64,000 bases of DNA from Bordetella genomosp. 8 (GTDB lineage: Bacteria; Pseudomonadota; Gammaproteobacteria; Burkholderiales; Burkholderiaceae_B): positions 4,340,001 through 4,404,000 of the forward strand of contig NZ_CP021108.1 in assembly GCF_002119685.1 (NCBI RefSeq). Direction: 5' to 3'. Below, one piece after another: positions 33,293 to 37,933 of this stretch. Both the position numbers and the translations under genes were made by a program. Position 1 is the stretch's first letter. The number at the start of each line of letters is the position of its first letter. A model generated the notes under the pieces. The model had not been told where the DNA came from. It made no database searches and saw only the letters and a list, made by a program, of their open reading frames with translations.

Positions 33293-33318
33293 GTAACCGG
33301 CTCTCCAGCACGGGCGAA
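33293..33318 (+). promoter_or_regulatory. ECF16 (SigF-type) promoter of the buf operon
   Basis: GTAACC at 33293-33298 (preceded by T, giving TGTAACC), a spacer of exactly 16, then CGAA at 33315-33318. This matches, from memory, the motif described for Caulobacter SigF. The sigma gene of that type lies in the same cluster, so autogenous control of the metal-buffer operon is likely. Confidence 0.7.
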
Positions 33319-33327
33319 CTAGCTTAT

Positions 33328-33344
33328 GTATCCGCGACGGATAC
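33328..33344 (+). promoter_or_regulatory. Leader hairpin at the 5' end of the buf transcript
   Basis: GTATCC (33328-33333) and GGATAC (33339-33344) pair around GCGAC, within a few bases of the start site expected from the ECF promoter. It could protect the 5' end of the mRNA or be an operator. Confidence 0.4.
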
Positions 33345-33373
33345 CTGCTTATCGAACCCACTGGAGAGCTCGA

Positions 33374-33685
33374 ATGTCCGCAAAAACCACCGTTACGTCC
33401 GCCATGCTGGCCACCGCCGTCGCCAGCATCTTCGCATCCATCGCCCACGCCGCGCCGCTGACGCAGGCCGAGGCCAACGCCGCCGTGGCCGCGCACAAGG
33501 AAAAGTGCTACGGCGTCGCCCTGAAGGGCCAGAACGATTGCGCCGCCGGTCCCGGAACGACGTGCCAGGGTACGTCGACCATGGACTTCCAGGGCAACGC
33601 GTGGAAGTTCGTGCAGGGCGGCACCTGCGCCAGCATCCAGGTGCCCGGCGGCGGCCACGGCTCGCTGACCCCCATCAAGTCCTGA
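33374..33685 (+). CDS. bufA: DUF2282 bufferin-type copper-binding peptide precursor
   Basis: A 103-residue exported peptide. Residues 1-26 are a signal peptide (hydrophobic AMLATAVASIFASIAHA, cut before AP). The mature part holds four cysteines, Cys45 (KCYG), Cys56 (NDCAAG), Cys64 (TTCQG) and Cys85 (GTCAS), in the DUF2282 arrangement. Members are described as bufferins: cysteines are modified by a DUF692 enzyme so that the peptide can bind copper in the periplasm. The next two genes are exactly that enzyme and its DUF2063 partner. GGAGAG precedes the ATG at 33374; the 16 codons upstream would cover the leader and are not used. Confidence 0.88.
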   Translation: MSAKTTVTSAMLATAVASIFASIAHAAPLTQAEANAAVAAHKEKCYGVALKGQNDCAAGPGTTCQGTSTMDFQGNAWKFVQGGTCASIQVPGGGHGSLTPIKS

Positions 33686-33702
33686 TCGCAGGCGCAACGG
33701 GG

Positions 33703-35432: not shown

Positions 35433-35960
35433 ATGGCAGCCCTGCAAGACACACCACAGGCCCCCGCCACGCCCCCTGCCCATGGGCGTGCTTCCGCCCT
35501 GCTCGCGGCGATCGCCGCGGTCCGGCGCGGCATCGAGAAGTTCGCTCAGCCCTGGCTCGTGCAGCTGCTGCTGCGCATTGCCCTGGCCGTGCCTTTCTGG
35601 AAATCCGGCATCCTCAAATGGCAGGGGTTCCTGCAATTGAACGACACCGCCATCACGCTGTTCACCGACGAATTCCAGCTGCACCTGCCCGGTGGCCCCT
35701 ACCCCTTCCCCGCGCCCGCGGTCTTTGCCTTCCTGTCCGGGTGCGGCGAGGTCATGTTCCCGGTCCTGCTGGTGCTGGGCCTGGGTACCCGCTTCGCCGC
35801 CATCGGACTGCTGCTGATGACCTGCATCATCGAGTTGACCGTGCCCGATGGCTGGCCGGTGCATCTGACCTGGGCCGCCATGGCGCTGGGCATCGCCGCC
35901 TGGGGGCCCGGCCGCATTTCCATCGACTATGCGCTCGGCGATCGCCGGCCGCGGTCCTGA
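35433..35960 (+). CDS. DoxX-family membrane protein of the buf operon
   Basis: A 175-residue protein with four membrane segments (about 45-65, 85-110, 115-135, 140-155), following a Pro/Ala-rich N-terminal tail. DoxX marks are LLLRIALAVPFWKSGILKW and the FLSGCGEVMFPVLLVLGLGTRFAAIGL stretch, of which GCGEVMFPVLL is most typical. DoxX proteins regularly follow DUF2282-DUF692-DUF2063 genes. The role is unproven; quinone or thiol redox support for the peptide is one possibility. Confidence 0.87.
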   Translation: MAALQDTPQAPATPPAHGRASALLAAIAAVRRGIEKFAQPWLVQLLLRIALAVPFWKSGILKWQGFLQLNDTAITLFTDEFQLHLPGGPYPFPAPAVFAFLSGCGEVMFPVLLVLGLGTRFAAIGLLLMTCIIELTVPDGWPVHLTWAAMALGIAAWGPGRISIDYALGDRRPRS

Positions 35961-35972
35961 TACGGAACCGCC

Positions 35973-36614
35973 ATGCGAACCCAGGACCTGGTAACGCGGC
36001 TGGCCGGCAACCTCGCCCCTGTCCCCCGCAATGCCGTACCGCGCACCCTGAACCGTGCGTTGATGGCGGGGTTGGCCGGCAACACGGCGCTGCTCGTCGC
36101 GCTCTATGGCTTCGGCAGCGATATGCCCGAACAGTTGCTGACCTCCATGTTCTGGATCCGGCTGGCCTTTCCGCTGGCCATCATCGCGGCCGCGCTGAAA
36201 CTCACGGAAAGGCTCGCACGTCCCGGCGCGCCGTCCGCGCTGGCCTGGCTGACGGCGATGGCGCCGATCGCCACCATGCTGCTGGTCGCCGCCGGGTTCC
36301 AGGCCGCGACGCCACCCGACTATCGCCTGCAACTGGTGGTCGGCGTCGGTTGGCGCACGACCACCGCCTGGGTCGTGCTGCTGTCCTTGCCATCGCTGGC
36401 CACCGCCATGCATGCGCTCAAGACCCTGGCCCCGACCCGGCTGGTCGCGGCGGGCGCCGGCGCGGGCGTGCTGGCCGGTGCGCAAGGCCTGCTCGTCTAT
36501 TCGCTTTATTGCCCGGAGATGCCGGTGTCTTTCTGGAGCGTCTGGCACGTCCTTGCCATCGCGGTGACCGCGGGCATCGGCGCCGCCATGGCGCCGCAGT
36601 ACCTGCGTTGGTAG
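35973..36614 (+). CDS. nrsF: NrsF-type (DUF1109) anti-sigma factor, copy 1, lacking one sensor cysteine
   Basis: A 213-residue membrane protein with six hydrophobic helices and the family ends RTQDLVTRLAGN and QYLRW. It aligns without gaps over all 213 residues with the copy at 37292 (FWxxLAFP, KTLAPTRL, YCPEMxVxFWxVWxV). At position 130, where the other copy has Cys130, this one has Thr (GWRTTTAW). It keeps Cys180 (LYCPEM). Two periplasmic cysteines are reported as needed for metal sensing in Caulobacter NrsF, so this copy may sense poorly or act constitutively. It is the fifth gene of the buf operon. Confidence 0.85.
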   Translation: MRTQDLVTRLAGNLAPVPRNAVPRTLNRALMAGLAGNTALLVALYGFGSDMPEQLLTSMFWIRLAFPLAIIAAALKLTERLARPGAPSALAWLTAMAPIATMLLVAAGFQAATPPDYRLQLVVGVGWRTTTAWVVLLSLPSLATAMHALKTLAPTRLVAAGAGAGVLAGAQGLLVYSLYCPEMPVSFWSVWHVLAIAVTAGIGAAMAPQYLRW

Positions 36615-36722
36615 CCATCCGCCCTTATCCATGCACGCCGAACGTCGTCAGCCTCCCGCCGCCCGCCTTTTCGACCTCCCGCGTAGAATCACGCAAACTT
36701 TCCAGGCAACAGTCTCCACGTC

Positions 36723-37295
36723 ATGAACCCAGCCGCGCAGAACGGATCGCCGGAGTCCGCCGAAGCCAAGCTCAGAGCCCTGTTGCTGGCCGGGCTCGAT
36801 GGCGACGCCAGGGCCTATCATGCCTTCCTGCAGGCGCTAGGCAGCCACCTGCGCGCGTTCCTGCGCAAGCGGCTATACCGGCTGCCGGACGACATCGAAG
36901 ACATCGTGCAGGAAATCCTGATCGCCGTGCATAATGGCCGCCATACCTATCTGCCCGATCAGCCGCTGACCGCATGGACCCACGCCATCGCGCGATACAA
37001 GGTCGCCGACTACCTGCGGCATCGGTCCCGGCACGAAGGACGCCATGAACCGCTGGACGATCAGCAGGACATCTTCGCGGAATCCGACGAGGAAGCCACG
37101 CAGGCGCGCCGCGACGTCGACAAGCTGCTGGCGCAATTACCGGATCGGCATCGGCTGCCCATCCTGCATGTGAAATTACAGGGGCTGTCGGTCGCCGAAA
37201 CCGCGCAGCTCACAGGCTTGTCCGAGTCCGCGGTCAAGGTGGGCGTGCACCGTGGGCTGAAGGCGCTGGCCGCGAAAATAAGAGGCTCGCTATGA
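36723..37295 (+). CDS. sigF: ECF sigma factor, ECF16 / SigF type
   Basis: A 190-residue sigma factor. Region 2 holds YRLPDDIEDIVQEILIAVH and LTAWTHAIARYKVADYLRH; region 4 holds LQGLSVAETAQLTGLSESAVKVGVHRGLKAL. Gene partner and motif both place it with the SigF group that responds to heavy metals. The stop overlaps the second NrsF start as ATGA, so sigma and anti-sigma are coupled. A 108-base gap upstream carries TAGAAT at 36684-36689, a possible -10 for a housekeeping promoter, so basal sigma synthesis may be separate from the buf promoter. Confidence 0.9.
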   Translation: MNPAAQNGSPESAEAKLRALLLAGLDGDARAYHAFLQALGSHLRAFLRKRLYRLPDDIEDIVQEILIAVHNGRHTYLPDQPLTAWTHAIARYKVADYLRHRSRHEGRHEPLDDQQDIFAESDEEATQARRDVDKLLAQLPDRHRLPILHVKLQGLSVAETAQLTGLSESAVKVGVHRGLKALAAKIRGSL

Positions 37296-37933
37296 AAACC
37301 GATGACATGATCTCGCTGCTCGCGGCGAACGTGGCGCCCGTGGATCGCGGCGCGCTCGCGCGACGCTATCGCTGGGCGGTGCTGCTAGGTGGACTCGGCT
37401 CGGTGCTGCTGATGTCGATGGTCTTCGGCATACGCCCTGACATCCGCGAAATGCTGGTCACGCCGCTGTTCTGGGCAAAACTGGCCTTTCCCGCATGCGT
37501 CGCCGCGGCGGCCCTGATGACGGCCGCGCGCCTGTCGCGCCCCGGCATGCCGGCAGGCCGTGGCTGGCAGTTGCTGGCGATATCGTTGGCCGTTCTGTGG
37601 GTCGCGGCCGCGCTGGCCTTGGCCATGGCGCCGGCGCCTGAACGCCTGCCCATGATCCTGGGGGCGACGTGGCGCAAATGCCCGTTCAACATCGCTTTGT
37701 TGTCGGTCCCCACCTTTCTCGCGGTGTTCTGGGCAATGAAAGGCCTGGCGCCCACGCGGTTGCGCCTGGCCGGCGCGATTGCGGGACTGCTCGCCAGCGC
37801 CATCGCCACGGTCGCCTACTGCCTGCATTGCCCCGAGATGGGCGTGGCTTTCTGGGCGGTCTGGTACGTGGCGGGCATGGCGATTCCCGCACTGCTGGGC
37901 GCCTTGCTGGGCCCCCGGCTGCTGCGCTGGTAG
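37292..37933 (+). CDS. nrsF: NrsF-type (DUF1109) anti-sigma factor, copy 2, both cysteines present
   Basis: A 213-residue six-helix membrane protein. It begins MKTDDMISLLAANVAPVD and ends PRLLRW. Cys130 (TWRKCPFN) and Cys180 (LHCPEMGVAFW), with an extra Cys177, match the two cysteines reported for metal sensing in Caulobacter NrsF. It should hold SigF at the membrane until metal or oxidant reacts with these cysteines. The start overlaps the sigma stop by four bases. It is convergent with yciF, 18 bases away. Gapless similarity to the copy at 35973 points to an old duplication. Confidence 0.9.
   Translation: MKTDDMISLLAANVAPVDRGALARRYRWAVLLGGLGSVLLMSMVFGIRPDIREMLVTPLFWAKLAFPACVAAAALMTAARLSRPGMPAGRGWQLLAISLAVLWVAAALALAMAPAPERLPMILGATWRKCPFNIALLSVPTFLAVFWAMKGLAPTRLRLAGAIAGLLASAIATVAYCLHCPEMGVAFWAVWYVAGMAIPALLGALLGPRLLRW

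Follow-up and report, generated by a model that had tools for sequence, protein, structure and literature searches.

The window analysed in this study is a stretch of 64,000 nucleotides (nt) from Bordetella genomosp. 8 (RefSeq assembly GCF_002119685.1, contig NZ_CP021108.1, positions 4,340,001 to 4,404,000 of the forward strand). As proposed by a first-pass annotation made from the letters alone, homology and promoter conservation support a real and complete bufferin-1-type operon at positions 33293-37933, with a gene for a SigF-like extracytoplasmic function (ECF) sigma factor and a matching promoter. The gene set probably serves to produce a peptide that binds metal, with control by a stress sigma factor of its own. 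The operon is an ordinary bufferin-1 module of known kind with an unusual regulatory variant: judged from the sequences, its unusual feature is a second, altered copy of the anti-sigma factor NrsF (NrsF1), without one of the two cysteines thought important for sensing and for holding the sigma factor.

The bufferin-1 operon and its promoter

The features of the operon, all on the plus strand, are as follows:
33293-33318, +: SigF-type promoter GTAACC-N16-CGAA, exact match, conserved; transcription start predicted near 33325
33374-33685, +: bufA, DUF2282 precursor of 103 amino acids (PF10048, 79.8 bits)
33703-34659, +: bufB, MNIO maturase (PF05114 (MbnB_TglH_ChrH), 348.3 bits; NCBIfam MNIO_BufB, 377.1 with a cut-off of 310)
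34649-35428, +: bufC, DUF2063 partner protein (PF09836, 78.2 bits), overlapping bufB
35433-35960, +: doxX (bufD) (PF07681, 62.0 bits)
35973-36614, +: nrsF1, NrsF/DUF1109 paralogue with T130 and C180 (PF06532, 192.0 bits)
36723-37295, +: gene for a SigF-like ECF sigma factor (Sigma70_r2 and r4_2; NF009188, 310.2 bits with a cut-off of 250)
37292-37933, +: nrsF2, predicted NrsF anti-sigma factor with C130 and C180 (PF06532, 250.2 bits)

All seven genes, their order and their single direction were as first described, and Pfam matches were obtained for the families. Read by eye, BufA has a Sec-type leader ending in AHA and four cysteines in the mature part, and BufB, which can be aligned to the solved structures 3bww, 8hci and 7dz9, has His/Asp/Glu/Asn blocks in common with them. 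These are the parts of a Buf1 cluster, namely a DUF2282 precursor with leader and four cysteines, a BufB-type MNIO, and DUF2063 and DoxX proteins above their Pfam cut-offs. The parts of a SigF/NrsF system were also found: an ECF sigma gene adjoining the gene of a six-helix DUF1109 protein, and a GTAACC-N16-CGAA target promoter. The sigma factor is a putative member of group ECF16. Little space separates most of the genes: bufC begins inside bufB, nrsF1 follows doxX after 12 nt, and the sigma gene shares ATGA with nrsF2. The one long intergenic gap, of 108 nt, lies between nrsF1 and the sigma gene.

The module is of a known kind: sigma/NrsF genes in Buf1 clusters, gigPABT-rpoQ-rsqA and the Caulobacter SigF regulon have already been published; the comparisons made here draw on excerpts of the cited papers. 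In Caulobacter, SigF is restrained by NrsF and derepressed when the cysteines of NrsF are mutated; under chromium and cadmium, SigF activates DUF2282/DUF692/DUF2063/DoxX genes (PMC3511200). The window resembles the Caulobacter sigF-nrsF system and its regulon (CC3254-3257, CC2907-2905) in the DUF2282-DUF692-DUF2063-DoxX set, the GTAACC-N16-CGAA promoter and a two-cysteine NrsF, whereas in Caulobacter the single NrsF described is encoded by the second gene of the sigF operon and in the window the sigma gene and two NrsF genes follow the buf genes on one strand (PMC3511200). It has also been reported that gigPABT of Cupriavidus metallidurans is induced by copper and gold. Its four gig genes likewise stand beside the genes of an ECF sigma factor and a predicted membrane anti-sigma factor, but the layout is divergent, unlike the single strand of the window, one anti-sigma factor is named, and control by RpoQ is assumed (PMC10304878). 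Sigma and NrsF genes accompany the precursor, MNIO, DUF2063 and DoxX in reported Buf1 (DUF2282) clusters, although the excerpted text, figures apart, mentions neither a pair of NrsF copies nor a cysteine-less one within the operon (PMC12452194). DUF2282 products have been discussed as copper-binding thiooxazole peptides (PMC12668002). The searched literature (titles and abstract openings, with few subscription papers and figures apart) gave no second or cysteine-less NrsF in a bufferin operon, nor was one mentioned in the excerpts of PMC12452194, PMC3511200, PMC10304878, PMC3420878, PMC8315932 and PMC12668002.

The GTAACC-N16-CGAA motif said to head the operon is exact at its place and conserved ahead of bufA. 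With a spacer of 15-17, the exact form GTAACC/CGAA has a single match in the 64 kb, while 0.09 were expected from shuffled sequences (at least one match in 9 of 100 shuffles). When one mismatch was allowed (spacer 16), the two matches in the window were close to the 1.58 expected by chance, and therefore only the exact form is informative there. The comparison set consisted of the window and 55 loci (L001-L022 and L064-L096, of which L009 and L087 hold the same gene); bufA copies were found by blastp (E up to 1e-6), the start codons of the relatives were extrapolated from the alignment to the window protein, and the motif was sought within 250 nt upstream. The exact motif was present upstream of 37 of 39 bufA copies, the window's included, at 47-116 nt from the start (53-56 nt in 26 of the 37). 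The other two are the second copy in L001, with no motif, and the copy in L066, with GTAACT; a weak bufA match in L012, below the blastp cut, was excluded from the 39. A chance promoter was ruled out by this conservation. The likely start of bufA is the ATG at 33374, which lies 55 nt past CGAA and is preceded by GGAGA. A longer open reading frame start at 33326 was rejected because it falls at the expected transcription start and the relatives support 33374.

When the 55 loci were compared, the order with all the genes together on one strand was found, as DNA, in the window only. There is about an even chance that these genes form two transcription units: the SigF promoter would serve buf-nrsF1, and a second promoter, in the gap at 36615-36722, would serve sigma-nrsF2. 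This gap is 108 nt long and contains TAGAAT at 36684, though with no adjoining -35 match; the sigma pair is a separate unit in many relatives, and the pair of C. metallidurans is RpoD-dependent (PMC10304878). On the other hand, buf-nrsF1 and sigma-nrsF2 lie on the same strand, and a simple scan gave no terminator-like site between nrsF1 and the sigma gene. A SigF promoter belonging to the window's sigma gene itself was searched for and none was found, the gap having no exact SigF motif and a best plus-strand match of 7 of 10. In a set of 42 sigma genes, made up of the window's and those of relatives, 23 have the exact motif between 250 nt upstream and 110 nt downstream of the start codon; in three further cases it precedes an nrsF2-sigma pair (L003, L064 and one of the two in L071).

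Two NrsF proteins and the lost cysteine

The two DUF1109 genes had been taken as equivalent in the first-pass annotation, which cannot be maintained: NrsF1 is without the first conserved cysteine, belongs to a clade of its own and is nearly always carried in the operon. NrsF2 has both C130 and C180, the cysteine pair of NrsF anti-sigma factors. NrsF1, a PF06532 homologue, keeps C180 but has T130, and its pair is incomplete; its sequence has WRTTTASV-like letters where NrsF2 has the WRxCPFNI block. By position in the published numbering, C130/C180 match C131/C181 of Caulobacter NrsF and C129/C179 of OsrA. Among the best 120 of 310 matches to NrsF1, position 130 was T in 99, A in 19, S in 2 and C in none, and C180 was present in 118, while all of the best 120 of 2515 matches to NrsF2 (the window's own protein included) had both cysteines.

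Since these match lists were picked by similarity, a tree is the better test of the cysteine loss. In a 104-row tree the 37 rows with the lost cysteine (one copy, G009, apart) formed one clade with a Shimodaira-Hasegawa approximate likelihood-ratio test (SH-aLRT) value of 99; the clade had bootstrap/SH-aLRT values of 100/99 in a 44-row tree, and was still recovered (SH-aLRT 98.9) after both cysteine regions were removed from the alignment. The minimum number of changes on the tree is two, which we read as one loss in the NrsF1 clade and one in the G009 copy. The latter (L009 8001-8639, the same gene as in L087; Paraburkholderia phosphatilytica) carries G and V in place of the two cysteines and is preceded by a promoter variant with GTAACT.

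Of the mutants studied in the laboratory, C129S of OsrA in Bradyrhizobium comes nearest to NrsF1. The EcfF-OsrA system resembles the window in pairing a group-16 ECF sigma factor with a DUF1109 anti-sigma factor, both OsrA cysteines have been point-mutated, and no bufferin operon is mentioned in the excerpts (PMC3420878). Changing the first cysteine to serine abolished sigma binding in the two-hybrid assay and left the sigma factor constitutively active, while with serine in place of the second cysteine about 70% of the binding signal remained but peroxide no longer caused release (PMC3420878). The structural model of NrsF2 (mean predicted local distance difference test score, pLDDT, 90.7) has six membrane-length helices, one of them broken. 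Foldseek gave no match for it in the PDB at E up to 0.001, and no sequence relatives of NrsF2 were found in the PDB at E up to 1. The model of NrsF1 was poor (mean pLDDT 63.5) and was not used.

NrsF1 is under purifying selection. Its median ratio of nonsynonymous to synonymous substitution rates (dN/dS) is 0.217 (207 pairs); the comparison medians are 0.339 for cysteine-intact NrsF (313 pairs), 0.135 for doxX (52) and 0.203 for bufB (84), the last two calculated on the first 150 codons. The calculation left out saturated pairs, those that were very similar or very divergent, and those that differed in length. It is very improbable that NrsF1 is a decaying duplicate without function: a conserved cysteine has been lost, and the copies in L001 and L079 are without the second one too, but the dN/dS median, the full-length open frames with invariant residues, and the single cysteine loss common to the whole 37-row clade all speak against decay.

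Location and probable origin of NrsF1

Copies with the lost cysteine are located in buf operons in 27 of 28 cases (G009 apart, the window included). In 25 of the 28 the gene lies 3' of doxX on the same strand, at a distance of at most 365 nt, with a 4-nt overlap between the two genes in 14 of these 25; the match to doxX in L008 is a weak one (48%). The buf operons of L078 (5462-8231) and L080 (5678-8447) have NrsF1 directly after bufC, with no doxX found between. The copy in L083 is outside a buf operon, has its own exact promoter and sits on a long branch. In the other loci, the sigma-NrsF2 pair forms a unit of its own lying upstream or downstream (on either strand), or is not in the locus. 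Locus L001 (843-10335) is rearranged: bufB and bufC lie on the strand opposite to bufA-doxX-nrsF1, and there is a second bufA and doxX; no cysteine-intact NrsF was found beside its sigma gene, and its NrsF1 is without both cysteines.

It is possible, though rather doubtful, that NrsF1 no longer binds a sigma factor and is a membrane protein of the bufferin pathway, such as one that works with DoxX or with the exported peptide in redox reactions or metal handling. The frequent 4-nt overlap with doxX, the position behind bufC in L078 and L080, the replaced block around position 130 and the loss of sigma binding in OsrA C129S are in favour of such a role, as are the loci of Burkholderia, Paraburkholderia and Caballeronia where NrsF1 is in the buf operon and sigma-nrsF2 is separate or not in the locus. 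However, the N-terminal cytosolic pattern common to NrsF1 and NrsF2 has been kept, although it is conserved somewhat less than the whole protein (58.7% vs 69.8% for NrsF1, 51.8% vs 56.6% for NrsF2), and the cysteine-intact copies of the wider clade have an exact SigF-type promoter of their own in 12 of 12 cases and lie just downstream of sigma-nrsF2 in 10 of the 12. We also know of no biochemical function for an NrsF-like part of the bufferin pathway, which counts against this alternative.

Because each of these cysteine-intact relatives has its own promoter, we take a second NrsF driven by the sigma factor to be the probable older state, and both the entry into the operon and the cysteine loss to be derived. 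The loss could have come before the entry, as suggested by the L083 copy. The best reading of the sequences is that NrsF1 is an additional NrsF, induced by the sigma factor, that was taken into the bufferin operon and has been altered. In all of 27 genomes selected for an NrsF1-type copy or a relative of it, at least two NrsF matches, a close sigma match and a copy with both cysteines were found.

The closest relatives of NrsF1 are in Bordetella genomosp. 9 (95% identity) and, as the next named one, Bordetella sp. H567 (84%). Six pairs of NrsF1 and NrsF2 matches come from assemblies whose longest pieces are equal in size (15444, 11434, 47907, 2856, 935766 and 5532470 bases); two of the six are named, Achromobacter aloeverae and Bordetella sp. 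H567 (AKI39_18175, AKI39_18185). Therefore, on this indirect evidence, Bordetella and Achromobacter probably have further neighbourhoods with two NrsF genes. Among the 120 matches listed for each protein, those of genomosp. 9, bronchialis and FB-8 (NrsF1) and of genomosp. 11, genomosp. 13 and tumbae (NrsF2) were unpaired. In the MNIO tree the window row is placed among Burkholderia/Paraburkholderia with L006 and L079 outside (SH-aLRT 97 and 93), on long branches, and the sigma tree did not settle the position of the window. No claim is made for horizontal transfer of the buf part into Bordetella, because the topology test on NrsF1 did not reject separate clades (approximately unbiased test, p-AU 0.364).

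Proposed circuit and its meaning

We give a probability of about 0.75 to the bufferin-1 operon being under a SigF/NrsF stress circuit as a whole, the role of NrsF1 apart. Without stress, the sigma factor would be held by NrsF2, a membrane protein encoded by the overlapping gene. The sigma factor would be released when metal or thiol stress in the periplasm affects the C130/C180 region of NrsF2, and RNA polymerase carrying it would start at GTAACC-N16-CGAA and transcribe bufA-bufB-bufC-doxX-nrsF1, possibly on into sigma-nrsF2. BufB and BufC would then modify the cysteines of BufA, which would be exported by Sec and bind metal, probably copper, in the periplasm. Sensing, release, modification and the preference for copper are taken here from the relatives named above. 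NrsF1 would be produced as part of the response; as a duplicated NrsF minus the first conserved cysteine, it would most likely be a second, altered anti-sigma factor that damps the response.

Several points weigh against this picture. Four of the families were below their NCBIfam cut-offs: BufC for HvfC (29.7 vs 142), DoxX for HvfX (57.2 vs 80), both NrsF1 and NrsF2 for AntiSigF_NrsF (109.0 and 135.3 vs 300), and BufA, whose one match was to the BufA2 model (27.7 vs 60). The eight closest NrsF1 pairs have dN/dS values of 0.19-0.55, a looser constraint than the median. In C. metallidurans the dependence of gig on RpoQ was not demonstrated, and deletion of rpoQ raised gig in metal-treated cells (PMC10304878). 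Furthermore, since the OsrA mutant with serine at the first cysteine no longer binds its sigma factor, NrsF1 may not hold one; natural NrsF1 resembles this mutant, which speaks against a simple locked brake. The loss of the cysteine may nevertheless be compensated, because NrsF1 still has the N-terminal pattern (M-K/R-T-x-D...L-A...P-V) and differs throughout the block around position 130.

For NrsF1 we lean tentatively towards a feedback brake; it may instead be a membrane protein of the bufferin pathway as described above, and some other role is unlikely. It is conceivable, but far from secure, that in one Burkholderiales lineage NrsF1 has become a non-releasable or differently tuned brake, in which case metal-released NrsF2 would start the response and NrsF1 would end it, and that in the Bordetella-type arrangement the sigma factor, both brakes, the precursor and the maturase form one unit.

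Genes for a DUF892 protein (37952-38443, minus strand) and a manganese catalase (38738-39616, plus strand) adjoin the operon, possibly as an oxidative-stress neighbourhood. At 54142-62279 on the minus strand, the window contains a second ECF sigma gene with the gene of a ChrR-type cupin anti-sigma factor, adjoined by genes for a lipocalin, two cyclopropane-synthase-like proteins, a flavin amine oxidase and a fatty acid desaturase, a set which we take to resemble a SigE/ChrR singlet-oxygen-type regulon.

Bufferins are a recently recognised copper defence, and their control by SigF/NrsF is little explored in the literature excerpts covered here. One caution is that a sensor role should not be assumed for every DUF1109 gene found in a cluster of this kind. 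A natural NrsF minus the first conserved cysteine, kept under selection in an operon, is a ready experiment on the role of each cysteine, and it raises the question of whether one sigma circuit may have two inhibitors, one for sensing and one for stopping.

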